A stretch of 64,000 nucleotides of DNA, taken from contig JACDTU010000018.1 of assembly GCA_022376465.1 (NCBI GenBank), forward strand, positions 62,001 through 126,000, written 5' to 3'. Below, piece after piece: positions 27,216-61,686 of the stretch (position 1 is the stretch's first letter; each line of letters begins with the position of its first letter). The stretch comes from Cubamyces lactineus. Its lineage: Eukaryota; Basidiomycota; Agaricomycetes; Polyporales; Polyporaceae. A program made the translations under genes and the position numbers. A model generated the notes under the pieces. That model was not told the DNA's origin. It was given only the letters and a program-made list of their open reading frames with translations, and did no database searches.

Positions 27216-28761
27216 TCACTTCTGAATCCTAGAATAACCGTCGGTCAACGCGCTTATGCATACTCTCCAATGGGCAGAGGATAGTGCAACACGCCCTTGC
27301 ATGTTTGCGAGAGCTGTTTTCTTCTCCTGATGAGGTTGTGTAGTGTATTAGGAACCGTACAAAGAGAGGAGCTAAGAAGTGCTGGAGTGCACTCACAGAA
27401 GTCGGAAACGCACTAGCGCTTTGTAACACTTGTAGGTATGCCCTAATCTCGTTCTTCACCTACACAGTCGCAGCGTGAAGCCGAGTGTCAGACGGACGAC
27501 TTCGTAGACATCAGGGAAGACCACTGACGTGAAGAGTCAACTCGCGGAATACATCGAGCTGCGGACCTTGCCTTCCCAAGGAAAGCATGATGTCCTTGAT
27601 AGACGCGATCACGATGTCGACGACGGGCTTCTGTGAGGCAGGGAGATCTTGAGCCGAGCTACGGACAGGCGATGTGACCCCGTCAAGATCTATGAGTTCT
27701 CAGTAAGAGTAAGGAGAGCGCTGTATTTGCTATAGAGTGGCGCACGTTGTCTGTGCTGGACGTGTGTGTGACCCTGCCCCGCTTGTGCGAAGACGTTTAC
27801 AGCCGTGGCCTGCGCAAGTGTCATGGTATTCTCGGCAGCAGGAGGGCTTCGTGGGCTCGGGGTCGCATAGAATGTAGGCAACCGCTCCGTCAGGAGTCCC
27901 CACATTTTCCTAGGAGTCGGATTAGCAGGTACGCCGCCTGGCACGATGGGCTGACGCGCCATAAGCTTTGGCCTACGTATGCTGCGGAAGAGACGGTTAC
28001 CTCGGGCTCGTTCCTGTTTCGTGGCCTATCAGTCAATCATGATCCTTGATGGGAGCTTCATACATACCCCTGCGACTGCGGCATACTCTCGCCCTGGGTC
28101 TCAATAGACGGTGTTGAGAGCGAAGCCCTTTCGTGGTCTCTTCTACTACCCGTTGGGTCGACCAACTTGAGGTAGAAGGTCTCTACGTTATTCTTCAAGT
28201 TCGCGCAGGGCCCGCTGAAGACAAAATGATAACTGTCAAGTTCCTAACGTCCTTCGTCAGCATGAATGTGATTGAAATGGTATGGCCAGCACGATACCGA
28301 CGGATTGCAATGTCGAGAGTTCCGCGATCATACTATCTTCCTGACCCTCGCGCGTGTTCCCTTGTAAAGCGAGGTATACTGATCGAGTATATCCGAACTA
28401 TGAGGCCGAGAATCAGATTCTGAGGTTGTCTACCTACCGTTGAGGACAGCAGCTAGCTTTCCAGCGGCCACATCGGAGTCATCGATGAGGCTCTTGTATC
28501 GCTACCAGACACGTTAGTCGGCTGCGGTGGCCAAAAGCTACCAAGACCACTGATGTGTACCTTTGTGAGTGTCGACCACTCCGATTTCAACGCGTCTCGG
28601 CGAGGATCATCTATGCGCGCGAGATGACGGCCGGCATCGCGAAAGGCTCTGTGGAGAGTCTTCGCGCTGGGTGCTAATTCGCGGAGGGTGTCAATGCATG
28701 TCGCAATTGGCCCTTGAGTCGGAGAAGGAGGGGGGCACCGGGCCCGAGTGTACGTTTGCAT
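27216..28761 (-). CDS. M1: minus-type member of a paired alpha-helical pore-former-like family
   Basis: This is the first of five minus-strand paralogues. Exon 1 is 28761-28561 (67 codons, phase 0), exon 2 is 28501-28438 (64 nt), a following exon encodes the VYLALQ...LSTLQS segment near 28370-28290, and a 13-nt microexon lies at 28013-28001. The last exon (about 27325-27216) encodes a helix ending in YSRIQK. The product is mostly helical with few Cys. The exon 2 peptide RYKSLIDDSDVAAGKLAAVL is a clear relative of the plus-type exon 2 peptide. A moderately hydrophobic MWGLLTERLPTFYAT stretch stands in the middle. I do not know the exact middle exons. The proposed role, the second subunit of a two-part membrane-active protein, is inferred from architecture and pairing with P1. 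A purely structural coiled-coil role is an alternative. Closest copy: M5. Confidence 0.65.
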
Positions 28762-29826
28762 GCCTGAAGGGGGAGGATTAGGATGCGAGCCAGGTTTGTG
28801 TCAAAAAGAAGGCCCGCATTCTAATATATATCGCTCTGGCACGCACACTCCACCCGTGTAGGTGTAGGCAATCGCCTAGACTCCCGTCCCTCGTCCCGTT
28901 CATGGTTGACGCGCCCAACGAGGGTGGTGGTTACTTAGGAGTCATGCATGCCCATCCGAACTTCCGAGCAATCGAGCAGCGAGTTTCTGCGCTGTCGTTG
29001 AAAGTTTCTAGAGGGCGAAGGGTTCGTCGGAGATGCACTATCGGGGTTTCTACGGGCCTTTGCTGCGGTTCCCGTAGAGAGGTCATGGGTACTAGCGCGA
29101 TCTCTAGGAAAGGGCGATGTTATCTACTGTGGCAGAACTGTGATGGGAGTAAGAGGGCCTTGAGGCATATGTTCCGTTAATATCGAGCATCGTGGTGGAC
29201 CATGGGAAACTTGAGCAATGTACGCGCACCTAACGTTCGGCGAGACACCTCGCGGTTGTGGTTCGAGTGTCCAAACTGTACTGACTTTAGCGCGCGAGGC
29301 GCTCATAATGGGCGCTTGCTACTTTGGACTCGGAACTTTGAACCACATTCATGCCGCCCATTCACTGGATTGCACCTCAATATATGTACGTGGATATAAC
29401 GACTCTGCTTCATCGCAGGAAATTGGTACGAGACAGTTACGAGACGTGATCCTACTTGTAGTCGGAATCGCGGATTGTGTGGTGGATAGTCTTCACGCTC
29501 ATGGGCTACCATCCTGCGGATCGGACTGATCCGCCCAGATCTACACAAACACGCTGGTCTCATGTGTGCAGACACCGCGCGACCACCTGCATGCCAACAT
29601 GGTGGTCGGCATGGAGCTACGTCAGTCCACCCTCCGCTCTATGCCCTATCCTCGGCATCTAGCGAGGCGTTGCAGTGACAGCTCCAGCGTCCGACATTGC
29701 AGGGGCCCTATCGAAGACCAGGTACGCTTCCCATCCACCGCTACTGCTCACTTATCTACTGATACATCGCCGTGGACTATTTAACGCAGATAAGCTTAGC
29801 AGATATGCAACATCCCCAACGCCGAC
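28762..29826. promoter_or_regulatory. divergent promoter region between M1 and P1
   Basis: This is a 1.07 kb intergenic region with start codons pointing away from it on both sides. A TATATATT box on the minus strand at 28823-28831 lies about 65 bases before the M1 start. A TATTTAA box on the plus strand at 29779-29785 lies about 42 bases before the P1 start. Both genes therefore probably draw on one shared regulatory region. Confidence 0.55.
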
Positions 29827-31582
29827 ATGACCCTTACCACTACCGCACCCTCGAGCCCGGTCACTAGGAGGGGTGATCCCTCTGATGCAGACTATGTGCT
29901 CCGCCTCAAGGGAGCGTGGTCGCCAGAGCTCGATACTCCCAGAATCCACGCAGATTTCGAGGCCGCCCTCCAGAAGGCTGATCCCACCCTCGAGATTCGG
30001 CGTCTCAACTCCGTTGTCTTGGAGCTCAAGACACTCTTCCGCAAGCTTTCTTTGGACTTCGCGAAACATGACCGAGAGGTGAAGCGTCTTGGAGTTCGTG
30101 CTGACGGGGTACAATCTCTGAGGCCGCAGTGGGACAAATTCCACAAAGTACGTTGTGCAGTCGGATCGTTCGCAATCCTCATCACACCTGGCGCTGATGC
30201 TCAACATGTAGCGTTTTCTCGCTCTGCTGGACGAGAGCCAGATGAATGCTATGGATGCGTCTTCTGTTCTCAAGCGTATGTATTCATAGTCTCTGCAAAG
30301 CCCCTGCGACACTCACAAGGCCTACAGAATACGTCAACGTCTTTAATGACGAAACGATGCAGTCTCGCGATTGCAACAACCTGAAGACGGAACTGGAGAA
30401 TCTGATATTGGTACGAATCTACTTTCGGATTGTTTGTAGAGATGCTCAAGTCATTCGTAGATGGTGGACGACAGGGCCAACAAGGCCAAGACCATCGAAG
30501 GAAGCTTCACAAATCTCGCTGACGATATCCGGGCGTTCGAGGACGATATAGAGGATACAGTGAAGGCGGTACAGGACTACGCCAAGGACGTTTACCAGGA
30601 TCTGGAGGCTTCACGCACAGAAGTCGAAGCTCTTCGTGTTCGTCTCACGCAGTGAGTCCTTTCGTCAGTATTATGGTTGTCGTATTTTTCTCATACTAGC
30701 ATGCCAACAGAGTCACGAAGGAGGTTCGTACGCGCAGCACCGCCAGCCATCGCGGATGTTCTAAAAGGCTCATACATGCCACCAGATGCACGAGATGGGT
30801 GTCGCGTGCATTGCTTGCCTGTCGGCAGGAGCACTTTCAGCGGGCGTTTTTCTCCTTAAGCTATCTCCGGAAGCCGCGACCGCTGCTGTAGTAAGTCCCC
30901 CGGCCGTTGTATCAGCCTGATGTCAGATAATAATGCATGTCTCCGCCAGGCATCTGTCCTCACCGCCGTTCCCCTCGGCGCGAAAGCGGCAAAGAAGTGG
31001 AAGGAGACTAGGAGTAGGTCGCGTCAATTCCCGCCCTCGGCCTTCACGAGACTGATGGATTCATTGTATCAGAGCTCAGGAAGCAGATCAGGGAAGGAGA
31101 ACGATCGGTATCCGTACTGGAACGGAAGTACGGCGCACTGAGAGTTCTGCAGGACTCTCTGGGGCACTCGCAAGGTGACCTCGAAGGTCTCGCGAGCAAG
31201 ATCGATGCCATCTCCGAGATCTGGCACCTCGTGCGTTGCTCCCTATGAGAATAATGCGCGGTGACCGAGTAGTGACCCCCATAATGTGCAGATCAAGACG
31301 GACATGAATGAGTTGCGTTCCCAGCTCTCCACCGTCACGACTGGGCAGGTCACCGACGTAAGCCATGCCTCGCACCTCACTTGTTCCTGGACAGGCCCCT
31401 CATGTTCCCGGTCGTCACAGCTCTTCATGCTCAAGCTGAGCATTACTCGAAGCGTATATCATAAACTGGTACAAACGCTCGATGAATACGCGCGAGAGAC
31501 GGTTGTGCATGCTGAAGACGATCATGATTTCGGCGCAGTGTTTGGGTTGTGTAGCGAGAGTTCGGTTTCCGACGAAGAGTGA
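29827..31582 (+). CDS. P1: plus-type alpha-helical pore-former-like protein, 408 aa (function inferred)
   Basis: Ten exons fit with consistent phase: 29827-30147, 30212-30275, 30328-30410, 30461-30651, 30711-30723, 30786-30890, 30950-31013, 31073-31230, 31292-31357 and 31421-31582. The product has 408 residues and no break is seen. Its order is a polar N-terminus, about 140 residues of long amphipathic helices, a hydrophobic, Ala/Gly/Leu-rich stretch of about 28 residues encoded by exon 6, a basic turn, then about 120 residues of charged coiled coil and a C-terminal helix. This helix-hairpin-helix plan is the hallmark of alpha pore-forming proteins such as ClyA, Cry6A and XaxA. No signal peptide is seen. 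It pairs divergently with M1. The gene model is well supported; the pore-forming role is inferred and could be wrong. Confidence 0.75.
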
Positions 31583-32258
31583 CGAGCCAGGTCCCAACTA
31601 ATGGGTATTTCCCCGGTGTAGTGCCTATCTTCCGAATGAGTGTATTCGTACGATGACATCCGCTTGTACGCTAGTGTACCAGTACCCTATATATGCCTTA
31701 CATCCTTCTCCACGCGGACGCGTTGCTTACAGGTACGGCTACGGATGATCGAGCTGTGCATGGTTCCTCTATCCAGGTTTTTTCATGAGAACGAGCCCCG
31801 CCAGTGCTGTATGCTATGTGAAGGCACTGAGTTCAGGCTACTGTCCCCCGTCAAGCTCTGGAGAAGATAATTCATGAAGTAGGACCATAGGCCGTCAGCC
31901 TCCTACTTCCGGAGCGGCGCGGAGATTAGACGCAAGGGGACTCAAATGGTTCCAGCCTGAGACATAACGTAGTCTGGTCGGAGACAAACAATCCTCTATT
32001 CAGCGCCGTAAGTGGACGACCGAGTTGTGCATGATTACTACCCTCTCGAAGTTCGTTGGCGAGAATGAGTCCTATCGTGAGCTATGTAAATGCACCTAAC
32101 TCAGGCTAGTAGCTCAGGTTCAGAACAGGAGAAACAAATTATTAACTTAGGAGTGTAGGCTGCTAGAGTCCTACGCCCGAGGTGCGGTGACTTGATGCAA
32201 GTACATATAAGGATCATAAATAGGTTCCCAATGACGATAGCCTGAGACCCGAGGCAGT
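31583..32258. other. convergent intergenic region with a duplicated gene end
   Basis: P1 and M2 converge here. The stretch holds an imperfect second copy of the 3' end of M2, described as a separate repeat. No further gene is seen. Confidence 0.6.
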
Positions 32259-32300
32259 CTAGTCTGTGGCGGATAGTTCTCCATTCAGCGCCGCAAGGCA
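31736..32300. repeat. imperfect tandem duplication (period about 271-285 bases) of the M2 3' end
   Basis: Two diverged copies lie head to tail. Copy 1 runs about 31736-32013 and copy 2 about 32014-32300. Shared words include GAGCTGTGCATG/GAGTTGTGCATG near 31751 and 32022, and TTCAGCGCCG at 31999 and 32284. The distance between matching words grows from 271 to 285 bases, so there are small insertions. Copy 2 contains the real last codons of M2. Copy 1 is a decayed relic of the same terminal exon and its 3' flank. Confidence 0.75.
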
Positions 32301-33857
32301 CTCCTTCCAATACTTGGAGGATGCCACGACGCGAGCTTGTGCTTCTTCGAGCGCTTTCTTTCTCTGCCGTGGGTATACATTGAATGAGAATGGCTCTGGA
32401 AACGTGTGTGAAGAGTAGACGTACGCTTGCCGGATACGCCTTGGCAGCTTCGAATGCGCGCAAGTAAGCATCGACCTCGTTCCGTAGCTACGCGGCAGGA
32501 TATCAGCGTTAGGGACGTGCTCAGTATCATCGAGAACAAAGAAAAGGGTCGTACATGCTGAGCAAGCTCGGGGAAAGCATCAAACAACGGCGCTTGCGTC
32601 TCGAGCCCTGTGATGACCTCCTTGATAGCGGCAAGTATGGCGGAGGTAGAGCTAGCCAGAGTGAGCTGCGAGGACTGCGTGTCTTGTCTTGCATTTGTAT
32701 CCGTCGATCGCTTAGCTGGCTTGGTAGAATCTACTACGGGATACTCTAAACACGAAGCGGTGTAGTTCTGGAGGGCAATGGAACGTACCCTGACGCCGCC
32801 CTTGACCTTCTCGGGTGTCGTCCTTCCCTTCGTGTGTTCCCTCACATGGCCCCTTCCCGCGATTGCTCTCCGGAGACATCAAGGCCCAAATGGCAGAAAC
32901 TAGCTTCCTGGAGATATTTTGGTGATGCGGATGGCGTTGAGGTCGAATAGGTGAACCTGACTTACCAGAAGTAGAATGATAGAGATGCCGCGGGGCGAGA
33001 AGACGGTTTGTTCGTAGAATCGCTAGAATTATTTCAATGTAAGTGCTATTCTCCGCGCCGATGACTCACAAGGAGCAACGTGCCTTGCACCTGCTCCAAT
33101 TTCACTATCCGTAGAAGATCCGTCTCTGCCATTTGCGGGATGCGCGAGAGTCATTCCACACATCTCGACGGTTTCGGAAAGACGATGGTAAGACGCCTGG
33201 ACATCTTCTCTGATCTTCTCGCACCGACGACGTAGGTCGTACGTCTGGCTAGTGAGAGTCTGCCATGAAACGGTAGCATAGGCTGCGTAAGTGGTAGGGG
33301 AGACAGCGCTCTCGGTCTAATTCACCTGCTGCAGATTCCCTAGTTCCGTGATCATATCAGCTTCCTGTGCTTCGTTCTTGCTGGACTGCAGAACGAGGTA
33401 CACTACGGACATGGTGAGTGCTATGAGAAAGCGTGTAGGACCTCGAAGCTCACCCTTGATGACGGCCATCAGCTGGCTTGCAGCGAGATCAGCATCGTCC
33501 AAAAGGTTCTTGTATCGCTATTTCCGACAACTTTAGCTTAGCGATTAGCGTAGCAGGACGGTACACTCAACGTACATCCGCGGAAGTGGCCCATCCATCT
33601 TCGAAAGTACTTCGACGTGGTATCACTAGGCGCGAAAAGCTCGCCCTACAGTCGCGCAACCCTCTGTAGATTCGGCGAGAGCTGGTCTTAAAGTGTCGTA
33701 GATTCGCCGCACAGGCCATGATAGGCCCGTCTTGAGCATGTTTGGAAAGACTGGGTTGCTTGACCCTTGCCGCAGCTTGTTGAGGTGACAGGGCATTCCT
33801 AGAGGCAGGCTCGGCCGGAGAGAGCGTGATAGATTTCTGGGCAAGAGAAGTGGACAT
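32259..33857 (-). CDS. M2: minus-type member of the paired helical family
   Basis: Exon 1 is 33857-33576 (94 codons, phase 0), followed by the 64-nt exon 2 with the peptide RYKNLLDDADLAASQLMAVI. The next exon carries VYLVLQ...LGNLQQ and is followed by a charged helical exon near 33300-33100. A short exon near 33013-32967 has a motif RFYEQTVFSP and then a hydrophobic GISIILLL, which continues as LVSAIWALMSPE in the next exon. A Lys/Arg-rich segment and long C-terminal helices follow, and the last exon ends in ALNGELSATD at 32259. The hydrophobic piece is split by an intron. The whole reads as open, but I have not fixed every junction. Its divergent partner is P2 and its closest relative is M4. 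Function is inferred only. Confidence 0.68.
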
Positions 33858-34799
33858 GCTGAGAGAGGAGAATCTGGTCAACTTGTCGTCACTCACAGAT
33901 ATATAGGTTCTCAAATATCTAATGGGTTATAAGCGCCTGAGCACCGTGTGCAATTAAAGATATCGTGCAAGTTCTGATGGAGACCCATCGCCGGTCTACA
34001 AGAGACTAATTTTCGGTGACAGAGAATGGGAGTGGCACGACTAGCTCCCAACAACCACTATCGTCTTGTCGTATATTGTATGTATTACTGCAGTATTAGA
34101 CGTAGTCAGTCATTACAATCCAGACTGAATGATGCAAAACAAGATAGCGTACTGCGAAACCGTAGGGGCCGTGAGTTGGCACATGGTAATGTTGATGACT
34201 TGTGCGATGACAGAGTTCCGAGACTTGAAGCCGTCGCCCGAGTCAGGGCGCACACGCATGTCTTCATGAAAGTGCGGCGAGTACAACGAGGTAGATATTG
34301 ATTAATTGTTACCTGGATACAACCTCGTGTATCTCATCAATCAAGTGCGGAGAGGAATGGAGTGCCGCGGTACGGCCACCAGCCCAAGTGCTCGCCGCCT
34401 GGACGGGCGGCTATTGGACATGTGGCTGTGTTCTTACGAGCCGTCGATGAGTCCCAGGCCTTTGCTGTATCGTACTCGATCATTGACCAAGTTAGTCCTA
34501 GCATTTGCTGCCCCTCTGTCGTATGCGCTCCGTATGGCAGCACATTTGAAGCACACCTCGAATGGATCCTCATGTTCTTCGCAGTCGATCGTCCGGCTCG
34601 GCGACCACCATCGAAACGTGACTACCACGATCCGCCTCTCCCAGTGCGTATGTCACCGGTATAGGTTGTCGTTGGCCTTCCATTCATAGGTATGATTGAA
34701 CGATTTCGATACAGTTTACATGACTTGATATAAATTCCAGTCTCGACTCATCCCGATGGCATTTGTTCAGCCCATCACCGCTTCTCCAGTCACCATACC
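33858..34799. promoter_or_regulatory. divergent promoter region between M2 and P2
   Basis: This is a 942-base region between two outward-pointing start codons. TATATA at 33900-33905 serves M2 (43 bases before its ATG) and TATAAAT at 34729-34735 serves P2 (about 65 bases before its ATG). No coding stretch inside is convincing. Confidence 0.55.
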
Positions 34800-36498
34800 A
34801 TGTATACGGACACAGCCCATACTCATACCGCGGCATCGCGTACCTTGACTTTTGATCCCTCTCTTTTTACACAGCAATCACAGCTACAGAGCTTCATCGA
34901 GACAGCCGAAGGGCACCAACACCTCGCGACCTCCTTTCAGTCCGCAGACCCCACCCAGGACATCCAAATTCTGGCAGAGAGTATCAGGGGGATCAAACGC
35001 ACGTTCCGTGAACTAGGGGACTACTTCGGCCTACTTGACAAACGGATTGAGCGGCGAAAATTTTCATTCTTGCGCCAGGACGGAGACACGAGCTTGCGCG
35101 CACAATGGAAAGTGCTTCATAAAGTGAATGCTGCTGCTCGCACGGTGCTCGTATAATGCTGACCACGTGTTCCCCTTTTCTCAGCGATTTCTCAACTTAC
35201 TCGATCATAGTCAGGCGAATGCTTTCCAGGCATCAGCGTTCCTCAAGAGTAAGCTGTACTCGAGTTGATCAGTACTACACCAGGCTCACGAACTTGGTGG
35301 TATAGACTATATCCAAGTGTTCACGGGGGCGCATGATCAAGACATCCAGTATTGTACTGCGTTGAGGAACGAGATAGAAAACTTTATCGAGGCAAGGGGT
35401 TTCTACTGTACTCTCAGAGTTCAGCATCGTGCTCAACGGATAGATAGATCACTAAGAAGAACATCGAGAAAGCGACATCCTTTCGCGACCAATTCTCCGA
35501 CCTCTCGGATGACATGCGTCTTTTTGGCATTGAGTTGCGCCAGAAAGCGGAGTCCGCTCAGGAGCGAGACGATAGTCTCCTCCGCGAGTTGTCAGAGGCG
35601 TATGGAGAGTTCCGCAGGCTAGAAGCTCTCCTAGTGATGTACGTTCATCTTGGCTGAGCCATATGCCCAAAACTAAGCAATCTTCTATACACACAGGGTT
35701 TCGAAAGAGGTAACGGAGCTGTCTTTACAAAGTCGTATTGTGTTGATCAAGAATGTGGCAGCTGTCGGACTTCAGCTCCGCTTGCATCGCCAACCTCACG
35801 ACAGGAGCCCGGGAGGCTATCCGTTTCTTCGTCAAGTTCGCGCCGAACGCAGCGCATAGCGCTTTGGTAAGTGCAGTGTGCAACCATGCGAGAATTGGAT
35901 TGATCAGGAACGTTGACGGAAACAGGCCTCCGTCCTCGACGCCGTTCCTCAAGGCATCGATGCGGCCAGGAAACGGGCGGAAGTCGCGAGTAAGTGCTGT
36001 GTATCAACACAGCTTTCGTTTCTTTCGTGCGACCTCACTTCCTCAACGCGGCTGTTTCCCCAGGCCTGCATGCACAGATCCGTGAATCCCAAGGGAGAAT
36101 TTCCAAGTTGCGACGGCATCGTGTTGCAGTCCATGAACTCACGGAGTCCGTGCAGTGTGCAAACGTTGTCGTGGACAACGTTTCGTCCCGGATCGGCGCG
36201 CTCACGGATATCTGGAAACATGTGCGTCGCACAGTTTCACGTGGGAAAGGCATGCGAACTCAATTGCACCTGGGCGTTTGTAGCTCCATTGGGACATGGC
36301 CGAGCTCAACTCGATGCTAAACACCGTCGTCTCTGGAAACATTGTTCCACAGGTGAGTGATGATAATTTGCCTTCCTGCTCCAGCTCACGCGGCTTGCCG
36401 TCATTGTACAGTTTTTCCTCAGCAAGCTCTCGCTCACGCCGGTCATCTATCAGAAGCTAGCGATTGCGCTAGACAAGTACGCTAGAGAGGCAATGTGA
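34800..36498 (+). CDS. P2: plus-type alpha-helical pore-former-like protein (function inferred)
   Basis: Exon 1 is 34800-35123 (108 codons, phase 0). Exon 2 is 64 nt and encodes RFLNLLDHSQANAFQASAFL. The 13-nt microexon is at 35697-35709, followed by an exon with the hydrophobic segment (FSSACIANL...FFVKFAP). The final exon encodes FFLSKLSLTPVIYQKLAIAL and ends at 36498. The N-terminal part has a basic KRIERRKFSFLR stretch that P4 shares. The same block order as in P1 is visible throughout and no premature stop was found in the exons read. It is divergently paired with M2 and convergent with M3, with 443 bases between the stops. As for P1, the pore-forming idea rests on architecture alone. 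Confidence 0.7.
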
Positions 36499-36941
36499 CG
36501 ACATCGTCGAACGTTCTTGAACGATTCATGATCCCTATGACCCTCTCCGTATGTCATTTTGGACGAGTCAGAGGCATTCTGTCAATGTCTGTGTACAAGA
36601 TGTGATCGCCAGATACTCCGGTCGTACGTGTCACTGGCCCACATGCCGGTCGGTCGGATGAAGCGCTATGTTTGCCGTAGGGATGTCGAGTCCAATTCTA
36701 CTTACCCAGCATCCATAACTGAGGTCAGTGAACTCGAGCAGACTTGTAGGTATACTTGCACAACCTCGACCAGCATCGCTACCGTGCGACACGAGTCGTG
36801 GCATGACAGACGCTCAGCTGGCTGCGCCGCGGCGAAGGTTCAGTAAACCGGCCAGCTATGAGGGCCATTATACAAACATCTTACATGGTACAATTACAGC
36901 TGGCAACCGAGCACCCCATCTCATCCACCCGCGGTGATAAT
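36499..36941. other. convergent intergenic region between P2 and M3
   Basis: I see nothing specific in these 443 bases. They should hold both 3' untranslated regions. Confidence 0.5.
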
Positions 36942-38598
36942 TCAGGAACTATCTATCGCGAATGCGTATTCGAGATCAAGGACTTCGCTCTCTGAGACTG
37001 TCACCAATTCGTTGGAGTCGGACAATGCCCTGGCGTGTGGGTGTGCCTCCGTCAGCGCCCTCTACGCATCGAGATGCATTGTCAGCAATTCACAGCTTCA
37101 TGAAGGAGCGCACAGGGCGCTCACATAGTTTCCGTCCTTCCCGAGGTAGGTCAGTGCAGTCACGTAGGTCTCGATGTCGTTCTGGAGCTATTGACGCGTG
37201 GTCGTGAGCTATGCAAAGCAGAGTTCTATGGCGTAAACGCAATACCTGTTCTGCGAGTTGCGGGAAGGCATCCAGCTTTTGAATCTGCTTGTCGAGTCCC
37301 GCTAGGATCTCCTTCAAGGACTCTAGAAGGATGAGTGAATCTGCCTCTTGAAGCTGTGGATCAAGCGTAGGGTCCTCTTGAGGGGATTCACACCGGATAC
37401 GGGATGCATCATCTGCCGTTTGCATGGAAGATTCGTCGTCGGACGCTACATCGGCCTATCAGCATTGCGTCGCGAAGAGGCGGGCGGCATGAGGCGCTCA
37501 CATTCCAGCCAGGGCGGATCGGTGTCTTCGGGTGGGAGGTCTTGGTGAGCGCTCGTCGTCGATGTTCTAGACTTCGCCGTCTCTTGTGGCACGGAGTACT
37601 CCTCTTTCCTTCTAACAGTGCACAGGAGTGGTAACGGGAACCCAAGGATTTTCGACAGAATTGTGCATAGTCGACTAGTAGGGGACCAACTCTTAATGGT
37701 CATCGTATTCCATCGCAGTTCACGTACCTGACATGACGCCGTGCAGTCGTACGGTGTGAAGATGTTTTGGTCGAAGCGGATGATGTGCTATTCTGTCGGT
37801 GAGCAACTTTCCCCTCCGGCTTCAGGGTCGGGCGGGCTTACGCAGTAGGTTTTGGACCTTCCTCAGGAATGTGAGGATTGACGTAGGTCTTGTCCGTATC
37901 GCCCCGAGCAGAGGTACTGCTCCCTTGGGTTACCCTCTTCATCGCGAGGTAGAATTTATCGACGTCGCTCCTAAGAGCGGTACATTCAAACTTCAGGTTG
38001 TACGCACGAGGTTCGAGTTTCTGGATTGATATCCGATATTAACGTCCTATATCAGTGCTAGAAGAAAGACCATATGGTCAGACGTACTGAACGCAGGGCG
38101 ACAAGCTCCTGGATAATATCTCCTGGCGTAGCCGATCTCTTGTCTCGAATGAGATACAATACTGTATCGAGGGTTAGAGATACGTAACAACAACTCGGCA
38201 TGTAATCAGGTCACCCTCTAGCACCGCGGCAAACTGGCTTGCCGCACGATCAGCTTGATCCAGCATTTGCTCGTAACGCTATGACGAACTCGTACGATTA
38301 ATGCGCGATCACCTCCATCCGCAATAAAGCGGCTACGCACCTTGATAATCCCCAGCCAGTCGGTTTCGAATTTTTCTTGTTCTCTGACAACCATCCGCGA
38401 GATGCACAACTCGGTATCTCGAAGGGCGCTACGAAGCCCTTGCGAAGTAGCAGCCACGCTCCGGAGGTCTCGGATATGTCTTGAAATCGAGCGGTTTCGA
38501 GGCGAAGGATGCACGAGTGGGCCCTGTGCCGCTGCGGCGATGACGATCACAGGATCTGGTAACAGTACCCTGCTTGTACTGGGCATGCTGAACGCCAT
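36942..38598 (-). CDS. M3: minus-type member of the paired helical family, most diverged copy
   Basis: Exon 1 is 38598-38341 (86 codons, phase 0) and exon 2 is 64 nt with RYEQMLDQADRAASQFAAVL. A middle exon has FRFDQNIFTPYD, matching the RFYEQTVFSP motif of M2, followed by a hydrophobic LCTILSKILGFPLPLLC stretch. Long helical blocks (LLESLKEILAGLDKQIQKLD) follow. The last exon, near 37048-36942, has a KALxEA-like start and a longer acidic tail than its relatives. An alternative start at 38586 is possible. The divergent partner is P3. The middle exon borders are not all fixed. Confidence 0.62.
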
Positions 38599-39573
38599 GA
38601 CCGAACGAAGCTTTCTTTCTTTCTTAAGGTCCTCGTTTCTTGTCCTGCAGGGCAGGGCCCTATGGTAGGCGATGTAGCGTGTGTGGGTACGGATATGCTA
38701 GCGGGGCGATGCACAGACAGAACGAAGCTGGGTCGGGATGAATCTAGGCGCCGATGCGTATGATAGCAGCTGAACGGAGCTGTTCAACGTAGGGTTGCAA
38801 ACTGGACCTTTATACGTTCAAAAAGCCCCTTTCATCTGGTTAACGGCACAAGGCACGATGAAGAAGGCTACGGCGATGGGATTAGTGCCGCCGTGGATGG
38901 GCCATCGTGTCCGAGTCCACTGGGATTCACAGGCGACTTCAGTCGGCGCAGCCTTATCAGTATTCGTGAGTTCGCGTTACCATGTCCTCAACATGCTGCT
39001 TGAGCCTCGAGGGAGCTGAATGGGTTCTAGGGCGCTGCGCAGGGCGACTTGTGCATGTGGTGGACTGAAAGAGTCCGCTGTCCGTCGTGGCACACTCATG
39101 GCTGTAATAGCGCCCGTGCCCCAATCAGATCTCAGATCCGTCCATGGCGGATCCCCGCTCTCATTCTCCTTTGTACTACCTACATGCATCTCCCAGCAAC
39201 GAATGCCCCGGACGCATTTGTACAGCCTCGAATTTAGTCTGGAACCAAACACGAGGCCTCAGGCATGTTCAAGGTTAGCGCTTTCCCTGCGACGCAAGGC
39301 TTCTGTGACGCAATCTCGCATGGGGAAATTCGAGTATCGGACCTCGGATCCTCAGGCTGACCTCAGTTCCTATGAAAGATTTCTCATGCGGACACTCGTC
39401 CGTATCACTCATAGTCCTTATATCTCCTTTTTGACGTTCTGCAAAATCACGTATATGAGATTGCGGATGACAGAGGTTATAACGACGGTCGACCGTGGAG
39501 ATTGGTCTACCCTCACAGCCTCGATCCTCAGCAGTCTGACTAGCAGATTACAATTGAACGCGCCTCAACTACT
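38599..39573. promoter_or_regulatory. divergent promoter region between M3 and P3
   Basis: This is a 975-base region between outward-pointing starts. A TATAAAGG box on the minus strand near 38804-38812 could serve M3, although it lies about 210 bases from the ATG. A 185-codon open frame (39020-39577) overlaps the P3 start by four bases. It has no relative in the other cassettes and I treat it as chance. Confidence 0.45.
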
Positions 39574-41192
39574 ATGATGACCACATCTCCGACGTCCTCC
39601 ATCTACTACAGTGCAGGAGAAGAGCCAATGGAAATACAACGAGAGCTGCAGCGAGCAGAGCTCACGCCCATGGACATCGCTCGGCTCAACAAGAACATCC
39701 GCTCCCTCGAAGACAACTTCACCCGCGTCACGAAAAGCCTAGAACACCTGGATCGGAGGACCAAACGCTCTATTCTCAAGTTGACGCCATCTCGCAAGAA
39801 GACTCATCTAGAATCCGTACACGCGCGATGGCAGAAACTGCGTCATGTAAGCCATCTGGTAAACGATGTTCCTTTTGTGCGACACTTACATGTGTGAGTG
39901 TAGCATTTCAAGGAATTGGTGAAGAGAAGCAGAGCTCAAGCGATGGTTGCGTACGCTCTTCTCAAGCGTCAGTTCATTGCGCTTCAGACGAGGCTTCGTC
40001 TCATCAACCACTCCAGAATTCGACAATGTCGTCACTAACCAAGGAATGTCCGATCAAGACGGCCTCGTGAGCATGAAGAAAGAGATAGATAACTTTATAG
40101 AGGTGCCCATTGTCCCATGATTCCTTCGACTCGGCTCAGAGGTCTCAGATGCGACTGACCGGCTATGATCACTGCTCAGCTGTTAACGGCAAAGGAGCAT
40201 CAAGCTTCAGAGCTACGAGAGGGTTTTCAGAACCTCGTCCGCGAGATCAATTCAATCGGATTGGAAGTAAATCAGGAATTGCAAGCTGCCGAACGTCAGA
40301 AGAACAGCTTGTTTGAGGAGTTGTCGAATACGCTGCACAACCTCGAGCAGCTCAAGGCGTCCTTCTCGAGGTCTGCTGTCTCTTTACGTTCGCCAAGCGC
40401 ATTTGCACTAACTACAGAACATCAGTATCTCCGACGAGGTGAGCTCCAGAGTTATCGTGGATTTCCCTACTTGTAAACCCATCTCTCTCAGTTCTCTGCG
40501 TTCAAATGGGCATGTATCATGTGCATCTCGACAGTGGCACTTGCAGTACCTTCCGGAACACTGTGGGATCGGCAAGCGGCAGGTGTACGCCTACCGGTGT
40601 TAATCTCTATGTGTCGCACTCATCCATGCTTGACACAATATCCAGGATCGCGTGCATGATGCGCTCGAGCACAAAGTGAAGGTTGAGATGCAGCGGAAGG
40701 AAGCGATCAGTTGAGTGCTCGTCAGACTCCACTTTCACCTAGTCCTCGTCGCTCATCTACTACTCAGGACTTCGCGTCGAAATCAAGAAGGGGGAGACCG
40801 CGCTCATCCAGCTGGAGCGGGAGCAAACCATTGTCCAGGAGCGCTTGCCCCTCTTGGGCGACGCAGAGAACGAAGTAAGACATATCGCTGAAAACATCGA
40901 CGTACTATCGGATGTATGGAACTTCGTACGGCCATCTACCTCATCCTCCGGCTCGTGTTGATTACCTATATATACCAGATCAAAGTTAACATGATGGAGC
41001 TGAACGCGCTGCTCTCTACCGTGGTTGCCGGCGACCATCTCACGTCTGTATGTTCCGTCAACCTCACGTATGCATGTCGTGGTCTTTGCTCATGATGACA
41101 TCCGCTAGTTCTTCCAGTCGAAGCTCAATATCACTAGGAAAGCACATCAGAGGCTGTCGGGCATTCTGCACGCATACGCCTCGGACTCTTGA
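39574..41192 (+). CDS. P3: plus-type member with a shortened N-terminus
   Basis: Exon 1 is 39574-39846 (91 codons, phase 0), about 17-21 codons shorter than in P1, P2 and P4. Exon 2 keeps 64 nt and encodes HFKELVKRSRAQAMVAYALL. The later exons carry the coiled coil and a last exon ending at 41192. In place of the 13-nt microexon there may be a somewhat longer one (near 40421-40440), and the hydrophobic exon is less clear than in its relatives. A second ATG three bases in (39577) is equally possible. It pairs divergently with M3. It may be specialised or decaying. Confidence in the gene is fair; its function is unknown. Confidence 0.58.
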
Positions 41193-43235: not shown

Positions 43236-44870
43236 TTAAACCAGACGTACGACCGGCCCAGGACCGTCTAGCTCTACGGCTGACAACTCCGCGTTCAGCG
43301 CGATGAGGCACTCCCTCCAGAACTTTGAGGACGCTACGACCCGGGTCTGTGCCTCGTCAAGTGCCTTCCTCCTCTATGTATGTCTAATATGAGTACGTCT
43401 TCGTCTATACATATTCATGGGACGTACGCGGGCGGGATACGCTTTGACGGCCTCGAAGGCACGCAAGTAAGCATCGATCTCGTTTCGCAGCTACGCGGAC
43501 GCACGAAGTCAGCAACTCAGCTCAGCTATCGAACATGTGAGAATGGCGGACACACGTGCTTGGCCAGTTCTGGGAAGGCGTCAAACAGGGGTTCTTGCTG
43601 CTCGAGCTTCTCGAGTATGTCTTTGATGGCTTCCAGAGTCGTCGACGCCGCTGACGCTTGCGAGGATTGTGTTCCTTGCCTCGCGGTAGACGGGCGATCG
43701 GCTCCCTTCGCTGCAGTATAGAATCATGCTACTATGAGACTACACGACGCGCAACCGGAACCGGAACTCACGTTTGCGCTGTTGCCGCTTTTTGCGAGCG
43801 ATCTTCTCCATGCGAGATGGTTTCGACTTGACAGGCCTGCAGTCTGTGCGATTTTGTGTCTCCGGATTTCTTACTCGCCGTAGGCGTATTGCGTTGAAGA
43901 TTCTCCTGCAGCCGAGTTGAGCAGAGAACTGATAGCCAGAGAGTATGCTGCGTACCATAAGATGAAGACTTTGGGTACTACCACGCTACTATTTGTGTCC
44001 GTTCGGTTCGGCTTGCTCGATCTGGGATATCTAGCACGTCGGTATCGTTGTAAAGAACACACAATATAGGGGACGAATTACGTACGGATCGGGTGTTTTG
44101 CTGTCATTGGAGTTCACGCGGTTGCTTGGACAGAGGGCGCCTTCCGAGTCGATAGCTTGGGACAGGACAACGTAGTCTCTCCCGACGTCTTCTCTCAGCT
44201 TATTGCATTGGCTACTAAGATCGTATTGGCGCTCGGTGAGGGTCTTCACGCGAACCATGGAGCAGTCAATGACAAGCCCAGAAAAGGGCGTGTAAGAAGA
44301 GTCAAAGGGAGACTGACCTGCCGGAGCGAATCGAGCTCAGAAATCATGTCGTCTTCTGGTGCGTCGCCCTTCTTGGACTGAAGCACAAGGAAAACTTCGT
44401 CGACACTCAGAAGCTAGCTCTTTCATAACGCTATTGCTAGCCTACCTTTGATGATTGCGATGAGCTGACTCGCAGCGAGGTCGGAGTCATCCAGCAAGTT
44501 TTTATAACGCTGTCGAAACACTTTCAGTTACTCCACATTCACTCGGAGGAGGATAGTCACTACGCACTTCCGCAAACGCCGTCCATTCGGCCTCAAAGGC
44601 GTCTCGTCCCAAGATATTCAGGCGCGATACACTTCCTCTAGTATCACGGATCGCTCTATACAACCCGCGCGAGCTGACAGCTAGATCGCGAAGGTTAGCT
44701 ACGCAGCCCGTGATAGGCCTTCCCACGGAGACTTTGCGAGAGTATACGGGATTTGGCTTGTTTACAGGGGTCCCGAAGGGGTCGGCGTTCTTCAACGAAT
44801 CAATCGTGCCGATTGTGCTGAATGGGGATGAGCGGGTAGCAGGTGCATGTGATAAGGTCGCCGACGCCAT
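43236..44870 (-). CDS. M4: minus-type member of the paired helical family
   Basis: Exon 1 is 44870-44568 (101 codons, phase 0), followed by the 64-nt exon 2 with RYKNLLDDSDLAASQLIAII. A middle exon near 44008-43900 encodes a clear hydrophobic run (VFILWYAAYSLAISSLLNSA) of transmembrane length. After it comes a strongly basic stretch (MEKIARKKRQQRK) and then long helices with EPLFDAFPELA. The last exon ends at 43236 after VASSKFWRECLIALNAEL, with a longer tail than M2. It pairs divergently with P4. The basic patch just after a hydrophobic helix is what a membrane anchor with a cytosolic side would show. Exon borders in the middle are approximate. Confidence 0.66.
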
Positions 44871-46005
44871 ATTGCAGGGAGAGTGCGGTGCTTAAAGGTC
44901 GCGCCCATACCCATCGTACTTGGCTATATACCTAGACCACCTAACTGCGAAGTAACGCCTTGGCCGTGATGCTTCGTGGAAGACGACCGCCGAGCCACCT
45001 GCACCTTGGATAGCATCGTTGCGAGGTGTCAGAACTACTCAGGGGCCTCTAGGGGCCTGTATATCGGGCCAGCCTTGCTCATCATAGTTAGCGTTCGCAT
45101 GCGTGCGACTGTAGTGTGCATGGGGAGAAGTTACGGACCTCCTCTTGCATGGAGTTCGGATATGGGAGCATAAAGTTCAATCTGGGAAATTCACGAGGCA
45201 GACAGACACTTGACGCGTTTCTTCTTGCGAGTGTGCAGCACGCATGGTGGACCAAGGCATCAAAGACTCGCAATCGTTGCCTGGCGGAGTGGTCGTGGTA
45301 CTGACCTGAGTCAATTGACGCGGCAGGGGCCGAGTGCAGATTGACGCCAGGAAGACCCCAGTGGCTGTGCAACGGACGCCTGTTGACTACAGTGAGGCCA
45401 CCCGCCGCCACCAGCCTCCTGCCACGACCTGGTCCGAAACACTTGGTGGGTATAAACCACATGAACCTTAAGAACTCGGTATATCGCAAGTCTTGTAGAA
45501 TCATGCCAGTAACGGTATCACGGCTCTCTCGACGCGGAGAGATCATCGCACTGAGACCGACCAATGGGCCTTCCTAACACCCGTCACAGGGTTGACTGCT
45601 GGCTAGTCTTACTCGTTGAATAGCTCATATCATTGCGAGGCCCTGACACGCTTGCTCTAGAAATTTGGATGCTCTGAATTGTCGACCCCGCTGTCGGAGT
45701 ACCGTTCATAGCGCCCATCCGGCCACCAGCTGGTTTGCTGCTGGCAGTCTTCACAAGCTCGCTCATCGCGTTCCAGCTTATCGCGGTGCGCCATCACATC
45801 CGCGCAATAGAGGATCGCTGGGTATGACCTCACCTAAGGCATACCAAGTGTGGGGAAGTGAGTATATGGTGCGGGGATGCTGTGACTTCCTATACTCATT
45901 ATGTCGGGGCATATTTAAGCGCAGAGCTCTCTGCACGCTCGGTTAAGCCTGCTTCCCCGTTCTTACTGCCCGACACCTCCCTTCAGCCTCAGGTCTGAAC
46001 AACAC
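44871..46005. promoter_or_regulatory. divergent promoter region between M4 and P4
   Basis: This is 1.14 kb between outward-pointing starts. A TATATA box on the minus strand at 44925-44930 lies about 55 bases before the M4 start. TATTTAAG at 45912-45919 lies about 87 bases before the P4 start. The open frames inside (for example 45088-45564) show no family resemblance. Confidence 0.55.
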
Positions 46006-47725
46006 ATGTCTTCGATGCACCGCTTTCGTCTCTCCTCCTCGATGAACACCGCATCCAGCACTATCACCCTCTCCCCTTCGGTCGTAGAGCATCAAGCACA
46101 ACTCCAGGGCCAGCTCGAGAATCCAGAACTGCACGAGCACTTTGCAAACGCCTTGAGGGATGTGGACCCAACTCGCGAGGTTCATAGCCTCAAGGAGGGG
46201 ATTCATGACATCCTCACCGACTTCCGAGACCTTAGCATGAGCTTTGGCCTCCTCGACAACAAGCTCAAGCGGCGAAAGTTCAAGTTCTTGCGCCATATCG
46301 GATCAAAGGGACTACGGGCACGGTGGAATTTGTTTCACGAGGTCGGTGGTGCAGAGTTATACGTGTTACATTTGGTACTGACATACCATCACGCACCGTA
46401 GCGATTCAAGACTCTACTCGATCAGAGCCAGCTGAATGCCATGGACGCTTCGGCGGTCCTTAAACGTAAGCGAGTTCCGCCTAGCCTACGAATGATTGAA
46501 CTCACAATTGTCGTGCTGCATCCCGAATCAGAGAACCTCCACATCTTCACTGATGACCACGTGCAGGATGTTGAGAAAGTCACCGCACTGAAGCAGGAGA
46601 TCGAGAATTTCATGATGGTGAGGGCATACTCTCATGTAAACCGTTTCACGTAACGTTCAGCCCCGTTCAGATCATATGCAGCAAGATCGATCATGCAGGC
46701 AAACTGCGCGACAGCCTCTCTAAGTTGTCCGATGATATTCGGCTGTTTGGTCGCGAGATAGGCGAGAAAGTGGAGTGTGCACAGCAGCACAACGAAACCT
46801 TATTCAACGAACTCGCGGAAGCCTACTACAAGCTGCAGAATCTCGAAGTCAGCCTTGAATCGTATGTTCACTCTACCGCATTCTCTTGGTATCGCATGTT
46901 TACCAGTCACTCCCCGGCGCGCCAGCGTTACTGAAGAGGTAAGTTATGACGGAACGCTCAAGCGGGAACCACGTCTAACGTCCTGCCAGCTTTCTGATAT
47001 CAGCCTCGCTTGTATCAATTGCCTTTCCGCTGGAGCATCTTCCGCGGCGTTCTTCTTCGTCAAACTCGCACCTGATGCCGCTCGTACTGCAGTGGTGCGT
47101 ATTCCCCCCTTAGCACTCGTACCGGACATCTAACAATATGTTTATACTGGGTATCGTCGTATTTAGAGCTCCATTATCGATGCATTTCCCCAAGGTATAA
47201 GCGTGGCCAAGAAACGAGCAGAAGTAGCCAGTGAGTATCATACTCAGCCGACAGGCGTCATCTAACACAACGTTCGTATCTTCAGGGATACGTGTGCAAA
47301 TTCAAGACACTCGGGAAAGCATCTCGGAGTTACGCAAGAACCATGCTGCAGTCAATGAGCTCACGGTGTCGATGGAACGTACCAACGTCCAAGTTGCAAA
47401 CCTCGCGGTCAACATCGACGCCCTCTCGAACATCTGGAGATATGTGCGTGCTACTGAATGCTCTGCCCTTCGGTATCGCTCATGCTAAAATTCCGCGTTC
47501 GTTCCTCTAGATCCGGACGGACATGGTCGAGCTCCGTTCATTACTCGGTACCGTTGTCGGCGGGGGACACATTACGGAGGTAGGCTGCAGTGTCAATAGC
47601 GCGAGACCGTCCGAGTCCACTCACTAGTTATACCACAGCTGTTTCTGCACAAGCTCACAATCACGCGAACCGTCTATAGGAAGCTTGTAGCGGCACTGGA
47701 AGAGTACTCTAGGGAGTCGCTATGA
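46006..47725 (+). CDS. P4: plus-type alpha-helical pore-former-like protein (function inferred)
   Basis: Exon 1 is 46006-46341 (112 codons, phase 0; a second ATG nine bases on is possible). Exon 2 is 64 nt with RFKTLLDQSQLNAMDASAVL. A coiled-coil exon near 46680-46862 is followed by the 13-nt microexon at 46926-46938. The next exon encodes the hydrophobic segment ISLACINCLSAGASSAAFFF and VKLAPDAARTAV. Then come the ASIIDAFPQG-type turn, the second coiled coil and a final exon (LFLHKLTITRTVYRKLVAAL) ending at 47725. Each block has its counterpart in P1 and P2 in the same order. The Ala/Gly/Ser-rich hydrophobic core is the best candidate for a membrane-inserting tip. It is paired with M4. Confidence 0.72.
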
Positions 47726-48441
47726 TGGAACGGTTCATTGGGCTTGCCTACGTGTTTTCGCGTTTCGGTGTCATGTATTCCCTTGTCTCGGTCTCGCCTC
47801 GATCTTCCTTAACTTATTGTAATGATGTCCCACAGTCTACGTCCATGTCTCGATCCAAATGTTGCTCTATGGCTCAATCTATGGATTGTGAAAGCGAACC
47901 GCCGCAGCTGATATGCTTCCGATGCTCACGAGTTGAAAAGTATACATAATCAACCATACAAAGAACCGCTCTTGGGCTCTGTAGGTGATCTTATGTCATG
48001 ATTTTACCAGAACTAGGATCACAACCGTGTCGCCCCTCCCAAATACGCCTCTGCGGCGCTACGGTACATTCTTTCTACCATGATATGTGTCGCGAAGAGC
48101 CCCAAATCCGCTCAGCCAGTTAACCATCCACGGGACACTGACTCGACACCGCGACGGTTTCTGTTAGCACGAAAATCAGCGGGTCGCCTGCATGAATACA
48201 ACTCTGAGTCGACCGACAAGCCAGCCCGCAAAGTTGAAGCGACGCCGAACGGAGCACACATCGATATTCGAGAAGAGGGATCTCTACATAAGTAAACGTC
48301 CGACCTAGATGAGAACCTGACGAATGAATTTCAGCACAAGCATAGCGGCCTCCGAGTCAACACTCAGATTGGAGCCCCGGGAGGACAAAGCTCGTTCATC
48401 CGCTCCCGGTGTTAGCATGGGACGAGGTAGAGACCGCCTCA
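47726..48441. other. convergent intergenic region between P4 and M5
   Basis: These 716 bases hold no recognisable feature other than the expected 3' ends of both genes. Confidence 0.5.
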
Positions 48442-50002
48442 TCACTTCTGTATTCTGGAGTATCCGTCCGTCAGCGCGAGAACGCACGCTCTCCAATGCG
48501 CAGACGATAGCACGGCACGCGACAGCATATTCGCGAGTACCGCTCGCTTCTCCTATGAAGGTATCGAGTTTCAGTACTGGACGGTACAAGGTGTGGGTAA
48601 AAGGAGGCGGAAGGAACTCTCAGCTCACGGGGGTAGGGAAGGCATTGGCGCTTTGCAACGCTTGCAAGTACGCTTCTATCTCGTTCTTGAGCTATGATCG
48701 CACGCGAGCGAGACGTCAGATATTTGTCAGGGTGCGCGGACAGCAGTTTTGTATACGAACATGAAGCGTCAGTTCGCGGAAGACATCGAGCTGTGATGTC
48801 TGCCTTCCAAGAGACCGCATGATGTCCTTGATAGATGTGCCCACGACAGCGTGTACCGGCTTGTCGGAAGTGAGAGGAGTTGGTGTATAGCCATGAACAG
48901 ATCCCAAGGTATCTTGGGCGTCTTTGGAGTCTCCATGAGTCGAATGCTATAGTTGTGCCGAACAGACGACGTACGCTGACTCGGTTGGACGTGTGTATCA
49001 ATCGTGCCCGCTCCCGCGGATACTTTCAAGGCTGTAGTGGACGCGAGGGTCAAATTGCCCGTGGTACCGAAACTGGGAGCGACCTGTGGACTTGTCGTCG
49101 CGTAGAGTGTCGGCAGCTGTCCTATAAGAAGGCCCCACATTCGCCTGTGGGTGATGTTAGCAGGCACTTCACCTTGCGGATGCACTGACGCACCATAAGA
49201 GCTGGCTAACGTATGTTACCGATGATATAATCGCCTCGGGCTGTCTGGTCCTATTACACAGCTCATCAAGTCATCATCGTCATACGGGTCGATCAAGGAA
49301 AGAGGCATACGTCTGCGATGTACTTTCGGGCTGAGCATTGGGGAACATATCAGCTAGTAGTGCTCCCTCGCTCTCCCTTCTATCACCCATTGGATCGACG
49401 AGCTGAACGTAGAAGGACCCGATGTTGCCCTTCAAGTTCGCACACGATGCGTCAAAGTCGAAGTTGCAACCGTCCAGCTCCTAAACGTATAACATGAGCA
49501 AAAAAAGCCATGACATGAGAACGAACTACTTGCAGATTTCAGCGTTGTAAGTTCCGTGATCATGTCAACTTTCCGAGTCTCTTGTGCGTTACTTTCCAAC
49601 GCAAGATAAACTGGTAGTTGAACCTCGGATCAATGGTCCGCGATGGTGTCAGCCTGGTCCGATCCGTAGACTCACCGTTGATGACGGCGGCCAGCTTCCC
49701 AGCGGCCACATCGGAGTCGTCGACGACACTCTTGTACCGCTACCGTGCATATAAATCGCCTATGAGCTACAATACCAACCAAGTACTGTCTAATGCACAC
49801 GTACTTTCGTATATGTCGCCCATTCAGACTTCAATATGTCTCGACGAGGGTCGTCTATACGTGCGACCTGGCGGCTAACATCGCGGAAAGCTCGGTGGAG
49901 AGACTTCGCGCTTGGCGCTAGATCGCGAAGAGTGGCAATACATGTTGCAATTGGCCCTTGAGTTGGAGAAGAGGCGGAGTCTCTGTTCGCGTGCGCCTGC
50001 AT
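48442..50002 (-). CDS. M5: orphan minus-type gene, possibly damaged
   Basis: Exon 1 is 50002-49805 (66 codons, phase 0) and the 64-nt exon 2 carries RYKSVVDDSDVAAGKLAAVI. It tracks M1 block by block, from an N-terminus rich in TQGPIATCI to a final exon ending in YSRIQK at 48442. The exon that corresponds to the M1 microexon is followed by GCGATT instead of a GT donor, so splicing there is doubtful. Unlike the other four minus genes it has no plus-type partner: transposon DNA begins within 1.2 kb of its start. M5 may be a functional solo gene, an LTR-disrupted half cassette, or a pseudogene. Confidence 0.58.
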
Positions 50003-51139: not shown

Positions 51140-51520
51140 TGTAACGACTCGTTCACTCTTTCCGTTTTCGTTCACTCCCCTTTCCCCATCACCCCTTCCC
51201 TTTTCGTCCACTGTCGCTCCTTTTGGCATTCCTTACCCACGTCGCTACTTAGATAATCCTTTTCTGGTCTCGTGACCTCTCGACGAGTATTTAAGACTCG
51301 CTCGCACGTAGAGTAGAGACTCAGCGTTCTTGCAATCGACAGACCTTGGAACTGTCCATCCGGCTTGAACCTCTTCTTGTCGCGCCACCGGCTTGCTTGC
51401 GAACCGCGAGCGCGACATCTTTTTGACAGCACAGTCTCTCTGGAACGCTACTCTCTCTACACTCTACTAGCTTTTCTCTTGACTACCCTCTGCTCTGGTC
51501 TTCCGTCTGGGCAACCACGA
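51140..51520 (+). mobile_element. putative LTR of the left Gypsy element (right end uncertain)
   Basis: It begins TGTAACGACTC directly after a purine run, contains a TATTTAAG box at 51288-51295 identical to that of the LTR at 59991-60407, and lies just before the gag start at 51584. I cannot define its right end, because no matching inverted terminus is obvious and no second copy is in the window. The end given is an estimate. Confidence 0.45.
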
Positions 51521-51583
51521 GTCTGATCAACTCGTCCCTCCTCACGGCGACCGGCGCTACCCTCAAGAAAAATTTTCGTACCC

Positions 51584-55414: not shown

Positions 55415-55823
55415 GGGAAGGATACTACTCAGGCCGAGAGCCTTTGTAGGTCGAGGCCTGCTGGCAGGGGAGAGGGGAAAGGACGCGAAGGAGAGGGGAG
55501 GTTGGAGTCGGGTGCCCTGTGTCTGGCGCGGACCGTAGCAAAGCCTAGGACCAGAGGGAATGAGTAGAGAGGGTTGGCTGGCCTTTGCGAAGGATGCGAC
55601 GCTGGCAAAAGCGCAGAGAAAGGGTTCGCGGATACACCGGGAAGGAGAGAGGAGGAAGGGGACGAGGGGAGAGGCGTGCGGGCTGTTGATTTCGCAAATG
55701 TCGCGGAGTTTCGCAGATTTTCGCAACACACAGTTTCGCCAACTTTTCGTGGAGTCTGTCCTCGTGGCTTCGCGCCGTTTCGCAGCTAAGTGGTTTCGCA
55801 GATTTTCGCAAGGTCGTCACGAC

Positions 55824-55900
55824 AGTTCGCAGTTCGCAGTTCGCAGTTCGCCGTTCGCAAGTTCGCAGTTCACAGTTCGCAAGTTCGCAGATTTCGCAGG
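55824..55900. repeat. (TTCGCAG) heptamer minisatellite
   Basis: At least eight copies and near copies of GTTCGCA stand head to tail, with a seven-base period and single-base variants (GTTCACA, GTTCGCC). Two-base insertions (CAAG) break the phase twice. Confidence 0.85.
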
Positions 55901-60420: not shown

Positions 60421-60456
60421 ATGCTTCTACGCTGTTCCACCAGCGGAATATCCAGC

Positions 60457-61491: not shown

Positions 61492-61492
61492 T

Positions 61493-61681: not shown

Positions 61682-61686
61682 GGGCT

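Follow-up and report, generated by a model that had tools for sequence, protein, structure and literature searches.

What the divergent gene pairs carried on a 64,000-nucleotide stretch of the genome of Cubamyces lactineus, a wood-rotting polypore, encode is the question addressed here. The stretch, hereafter the window, comprises positions 62001–126000 of contig JACDTU010000018.1 (C10) in a genome totalling 36.3 Mb, and its nine genes of interest lie at 27.2–50.0 kb. An earlier note on the window had taken them for cassettes of a binary pore-forming system used in defence, competition or self/non-self reactions. We report that the pairs are built from two paralogous protein types, designated P and M, that P is supported by profile matches and a predicted fold as a member of the ClyA/α-xenorhabdolysin superfamily, and that deposited gene models of two sister species place a P-type part behind an N-terminal HET domain. 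Together, the P/M arrays and the HET fusions suggest a fungal cell-death or recognition system, which may be new.

Paralogy and Co-inheritance of P and M

Self-comparison of reading-frame pieces sorts the nine genes into two paralogous sets, with M on the minus strand and P on the plus strand in strict alternation, as the earlier note had described; its shared promoter regions of 0.9–1.1 kb are likewise confirmed by start-to-start gaps of 932–1135 bp in the four complete pairs, and its P-type length of about 408 residues by the P1 model (Table 1). M5, which it considered an orphan at the end of the array, is followed to the right of the window (C10:148.0–156.2 kb) by P5(+), its likely partner, and by M6(−), M7(−) and P7(+). 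The whole array thus has 13 genes, and the alternation is broken only at M6–M7; a P gene is absent from its place beside M6, leaving an M orphan and no P orphan. Exons homologous to those of P4 and M4 (at least 16 and at least 17 matches, respectively) were found nowhere outside C10.

Five of the genes have deposited C. lactineus proteins, namely P4, P3, M4, M2 and, to the right of the window, M6; each of these proteins aligns exactly with the genome across GT/GC–AG introns of 49–77 bp. In all five, exon 2 is 64 nt long, the first four introns have phases 0, 1, 0 and 2, and the final two have phase 0; comparison of the M and P profiles gave a P-value of 1.4e-5 over 51 aligned columns. Judged by sequence and exon structure, M and P are paralogues, which bears out the relationship between two protein types that had been proposed. 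The exons encoding the P stalk and tip (191, 13, 93–105, 64 and 158 nt) are replaced in M by a variable linker.

The two types have also been duplicated together. For the six C. lactineus pairs (M6, which has no P, was left out), the P and M distance matrices correlate with r 0.91, a value reached by 1 of 720 pairings, namely the true one, and r is 0.93 when three sister-species pairs are added. Two of the added pairs are adjacent by locus tag in Trametes cubensis (g11936/g11937 and g10321/g10322, each made up of one P and one M), and the third, from Cubamyces sp. BRFM 1775, was assumed from protein type and equally long contigs; four members of this strain lie on contigs that are all 32,117 long. 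P diverges faster than M in all three paralogous comparisons of core identity (P1/P5 49% vs. M1/M5 69%; P2/P4 46% vs. M2/M4 63%; P3/P7 42% vs. M3/M7 52%). The protein searches, which rely on shared 5-residue words, returned 7, 11 and 11 proteins at E ≤ 0.001, 0.001 and 0.01, and the alignment search, in whose query the P1 and P5 sequences were included, scored the best 7,997 candidates; all proteins returned are from Cubamyces or T. cubensis except a short unnamed fragment (P0007), and a wider spread is possible.

Predicted Folds of the Two Types

The XaxA profile NF033928 matches P1 at 6.1e-19 and P5 at 7e-15, and it matches all six members of alignment A1 (best 1.4e-11; P4 2.2e-8) and none of the six reversed-sequence controls. 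P5 also matches NheC (3.9e-8) and NheB (2.1e-4). On the raw genome the profile gave 0 matches, because a gene can be matched there only exon by exon. Among the P-type proteins P4 alone was modelled with AlphaFold2 (predicted local distance difference test, pLDDT, 76.5); the model has a helical head, a long coiled-coil stalk (helices 147–254 and 258–355) and a hairpin tip, and the top rows of both the Foldseek and the VIA search belong to the ClyA/α-xenorhabdolysin superfamily.

As a test of the tip, we counted how many of 300 shuffles reached the best 19-residue hydrophobicity window of each protein. The counts were 0 for P1, 18–19 for P5, 29 for P3, 73 for P0021, 111 for P4, 117 for P0002, 135 for P7, 208 for the P2 model, 226 for P0004 and 297 for P0005, and in P7, P0004 and P0005 the best window falls outside the tip. 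Values for P5, P2 and P7 come from gene-finding models; a trimmed P5 model gave the same result. No secretion leader was seen in P or M by eye, no signal-peptide program having been run.

For M4, the best AlphaFold2 model, built from 11 sequences, has a pLDDT of 62.4 and predicts head-type helices at residues 53–82, 89–129, 136–152, 157–184, 279–336, 338–351 and 356–371, with low confidence at 186–280. Its VIA scores are 15.6 and 15.4 for AhlB and 15.0 for Hbl-B; because de novo helical bundles reach 13.3, the evidence for a likeness of the predicted M head to AhlB/Hbl-B-type toxins is moderate. AB21 (12.8) and the Pleurotus pink protein (12.2), both from mushrooms, appear in the same list at background level. 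By eye, the linkers contain a short stretch of hydrophobic or amphipathic character close to basic residues: FILWRIFNAIRLRR in M4, FYFWKLVSAIWALM in M2, ILERLMSAFFCRVF in M6 and LYKQLLRVLKLLL in the M7 model, with similar pieces in candidate, unconfirmed exons of M1, M3 and M5.

HET-Domain Fusions in Sister Species

Two proteins of about 700 residues from the alignment search, P0020 of T. cubensis (714 residues) and P0022 of Cubamyces sp. BRFM 1775 (694 residues), carry an N-terminal Pfam HET domain (PF06985; 48.4 and 40.6 bits vs. a gathering score of 22.5). HET is described, in the available part of a review, as a TIR-like domain that is frequent in fungal incompatibility (PMC12881547). The two proteins align end to end (residues 6–713 with 17–694, 54%), and their C-termini are P4-type, each with a core identity to P4 of 70%. 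The tip is gone from both: P0022 is without a segment of about 50 residues there, P0020 has a polar version, and the best 19-residue hydrophobicity of the fused P parts is 1.07 and 0.96, vs. 1.71 in P4. Because a methionine is absent near the usual P start, P0020 speaks for a true fusion; P0022 and the M-type protein P0011, on contigs both 217,594 long, hint at a HET-P/M pair.

Of the 52 matches of P0022 in C. lactineus, 43 are HET parts located on contigs other than C10, and the other 9 are P parts that all fall within the array. At least 30 HET-domain loci of the genome match its HET part, none of them on C10. Pfam scans covered P4, P1, M4 and the alignments A1 and A2, and no HET domain is among the matches listed for them (for P1 and A1, the top 25). 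The fusions, which lay outside the window sequence, narrow the broad choice between defence, competition and self/non-self reactions with which the earlier note had ended.

Organization of the Array and Its Surroundings

M5 and P5 face each other 36 kb apart, and most of the distance is one long terminal repeat (LTR) element. It encloses two further copies, each about 7.65 kb long, which are 99.5% identical, point in opposite directions and have their own 5-bp repeats (CTTGT and CCCAG), read by eye after shifting the ends by two bases; reading frames of the block match retroviral aspartyl protease, zinc knuckle, RNase H, integrase and chromo domains. Because this nested block fills most of the gap, M5 and P5 are probably one pair split by transposons. 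Between the block and P5, inverted repeats of 91 bp, 97.8% alike and spanning about 565 bp (C10:145730–146294), look like a small terminal-inverted-repeat element.

The guanine-plus-cytosine content across the array (window 26001–50000, twelve 2-kb steps) is 0.508–0.546, vs. 0.556–0.620 in the remaining steps of the window. A tRNA gene (window 26789–26872, −) adjoins the left end of the array and is the only RNA family found at 24–54 kb. A Polo-box kinase gene (C10:158157–160223, −) lies to the right of P7, genes for NMD3, F-box and CCCH zinc-finger proteins lie to the left of the window, and the initial 500 bases of the contig contain no telomere repeat.

Table 1. Features of the P/M array and the adjoining transposon block; positions are those of the window unless preceded by C10.
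Feature	Position	Strand	Length	Remarks
M1, M-type (tip-less partner)	27216..28761	−		model; closest in sequence to M5
M1/P1 divergent region	28762..29826		1065 bp	
P1, P-type	29827..31582	+	408 residues	10 exons; top XaxA profile match; most hydrophobic tip among those measured
M2 (C8Q73DRAFT_193220)	32259..33857	−		9 exons; deposited protein mapped
M2/P2 divergent region	33858..34789		932 bp	
P2, P-type	34790..36498	+		incomplete model; 13-nt exon 5 not found
M3, M-type	about 36942..38598	−		model; 3′ end uncertain
M3/P3 divergent region	38599..39573		975 bp	
P3 (C8Q73DRAFT_794362)	39574..41192	+		10 exons; deposited protein mapped
M4 (C8Q73DRAFT_711231)	43236..44870	−		9 exons; deposited protein mapped; AlphaFold2 model
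M4/P4 divergent region	44871..46005		1135 bp	
P4 (C8Q73DRAFT_794364)	46006..47725	+		10 exons; deposited protein mapped; AlphaFold2 model
M5, M-type	48442..50002	−		model; likely partner P5 beyond the window
Nested LTR-retrotransposon block, left part	51140..64000			separates M5 from P5
Outer LTR element	C10:113140-145704			278-bp ends 99.6% alike; flanked by 5-bp target duplication GGAGG
P5	C10:148024 (window-equivalent 86024)	+		

Discussion

We tentatively read the array, at somewhat under an even chance, as a set of co-inherited two-component modules of the ClyA/α-xenorhabdolysin superfamily that would serve as intracellular, regulated membrane-perforating devices of cell death or recognition. 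From the folds we infer the steps toward function. P would be the pore-former, with a helical head and a stalk in which two helices of about 100 residues each form a coiled coil; its hairpin tip, hydrophobic in P1 and P5, may insert into the membrane upon oligomerisation. M would be a paralogue in which the head was retained but the stalk lost; by binding P via the head it may license or restrain assembly, its short linker helix touching the membrane. Both would act inside the fungus, being made without an evident secretion leader. In the sister species a P head, its tip removed, would have been borrowed by HET proteins, behind whose TIR-like domain it may serve as a module for recognition or assembly and so set off HET-dependent death. 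A complete immune or recognition circuit is rather unlikely. In it, P/M pairs would be the executioners, and the tip-less head of HET-P would be a built-in sensor or decoy; by assembling together with P/M heads that are foreign or activated, it would set off the TIR-like death reaction of HET. The logic of such a circuit would be comparable to that of NWD2/HET-S, but with a different class of pore-former.

Several results weigh against the reading of the array as cell-death modules. All matches to the XaxA profile fall below its curated 125-bit cut-off, and the three P3-type proteins (3/3) and the fusion P0022 have no match at E ≤ 0.01. Coiled-coil families match reversed P1 down to 6.6e-8, for which reason the P4 match is not counted alone; the P1 and P5 matches stand clear of this background in the profile comparisons. 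Sequence searches of the PDB listed no toxin (in one, among the best 60 of 118 matches), the matches being weak and mostly to coiled coils (best 8qox_B, 0.0017). The P4 model was built from six sequences, with two of five models poor, and significant hydrophobicity of the tip is confined to P1 and P5. Four of the five M4 models are poor (pLDDT 38.7–44.9), and 0 of 11 M members match the Xax profiles at E ≤ 1. The unfused, intact P2-type protein P0005 has a hydrophobicity of 0.97, so that a low value is not special to the fusions; the latter are deposited gene models, in P0022 possibly with a skipped exon, and no HET-P fusion was found in the C. lactineus genome. Because linkage explains the matrix correlation, it shows co-inheritance and does not prove M–P binding. 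Among the five divergent regions no 8-mer is common to at least four, and 7-mers found in four of them (20 vs. 16.2, standard deviation 7.2, in shuffles) show no excess. Eight of the 13 genes (P1, P2, P5, P7, M1, M3, M5 and M7), for which the protein searches returned no deposited C. lactineus protein, rest on our own splice models; the 13-nt exon of P2 was not found, the junctions of exons 3 and 4 in M5 are unsettled, and P7, M7 and part of P5 come from a gene-finding run that over-extended several genes.

The pore-former likeness claimed by the earlier note therefore stands better for P, through the XaxA profile (strong in P1 and P5, with negative reversed controls) and the predicted P4 fold, than for M, which offers paralogy and a head-like bundle, together with a weak model, no profile match and no Foldseek match at E ≤ 0.001 (best NheA, 0.12). 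That the components form a unit is upheld, through co-duplication and the adjacent tags in T. cubensis, as co-inheritance and not as interaction.

Two other explanations are live rivals. P and M may be a released bicomponent defence toxin, cytosolic until freed from eaten or injured hyphae; the two would then jointly pierce the membranes of nematodes, of insects or of competing microbes, a role that has been proposed for aegerolysin/MACPF pairs. This explanation has an appreciable chance, though we think it unlikely. The fold and family of XaxAB/AhlB/Cry6A-type toxins and the repeated duplication and divergence would suit it, as would the likeness of the divergent pairs to fungal bicomponent toxins such as PlyA/PlyB, whose partners are not paralogues and whose folds are unrelated to P and M. 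In such toxins of another fold, too, the available description has the genes arranged 5′–5′ and so bidirectionally (PMC9505663), and nine haemolysin E-like genes of an oomycete are thought to be bacterial in origin, with two members expressed during infection, according to the accessible part of their report (PMC3681718). A pure anti-predator toxin would not predict the HET-P fusions of two species, which put the head into an intracellular-type death protein; the lack of a visible leader also speaks against release.

Alternatively, P may be a self-acting pore-former and M its antidote, a decoy head without a tip that would cap oligomers of P; loss of M would then kill, as in selfish drive or incompatibility. 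We regard this as doubtful. M does retain the head without stalk and tip, the pairing is strict, the only orphan in the array is an M (M6), and P diverges faster than M. Against this explanation, the hydrophobic segment that recurs, by eye, in the M linkers suggests that M itself has a role at the membrane. That the array proteins form no pores at all and are long helical hairpins used for structure, storage or pigment binding, like other mushroom proteins with a related bundle, is improbable. The mushroom helical bundles matched by the M4 fold search, AB21 of Agaricus bisporus and the pink protein of Pleurotus salmoneostramineus, are chains of 191 and 225 residues with Z at helical-bundle background, and we know of no divergent partner of either. 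A homeodomain HD1/HD2 mating-type pair, prompted by the divergent multi-pair layout, was rejected, with no homeobox at E ≤ 1 among the Pfam matches listed for the scanned proteins and alignments; the aegerolysin and MACPF domains PF06355 and PF01823 are likewise absent from these matches. A cytoskeletal or SMC-like coiled-coil identity was rejected, such profile matches recurring with reversed sequences down to 6.6e-8.

The modules resemble the bacterial bicomponent α-pore-forming toxins XaxAB, YaxAB and PaxAB in the XaxA profile matches of P1 and P5 and the predicted fold of P4, in having two related components side by side, and in their two long helices with a tip. They differ in being fungal, intron-rich, divergent and multi-pair, with HET fusions in sister species; M has neither an XaxB profile match nor a stalk. 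In XaxAB, whose components are alike, XaxA is the activator and XaxB inserts by means of an amphipathic helix that it swings outward, according to the part of the study available (PMC6086661). The best fold matches of the P and M heads are AhlABC/SmhABC/MakABE, ClyA, Cry6A and Hbl/Nhe; in contrast to the tripartite AhlABC/SmhABC/MakABE, no third gene type was recognised in the array, and identities in the listed alignments are 6–15%. A eukaryotic ClyA-type family is as such not new, because the oomycete Saprolegnia parasitica has nine haemolysin E (HlyE/ClyA)-like genes; this multi-copy family is likened to the toxin by description only, and the available part of the report mentions neither a partner gene nor a HET link (PMC3681718). 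The superfamily being known, we rate the setting, the gene layout and the HET fusion as new: none of the open-licence PMC papers listed by the literature searches describes basidiomycete proteins of the XaxA/ClyA type, save for an AB21 citation. The fusions recall het-B of Podospora, where a HET protein that ends in a recognition domain acts together with an adjacent gene, according to the part of the source at hand (PMC10890737); here the C-terminal domain is a tip-less pore-former head, and the fusion was not found in C. lactineus.

The executioners of fungal cell death named in the available part of PMC12881547 are HeLo/HELL bundles and gasdermins. If our reading is true, these would be joined by a further executioner class, an α-xenorhabdolysin-like pore-former that has a paralogous partner and occurs in HET fusions, and fungal self/non-self recognition would be linked to a bacterial toxin superfamily. 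The array would also provide concrete candidate genes for vegetative incompatibility in basidiomycetes, where, to our knowledge, such genes are hardly known.

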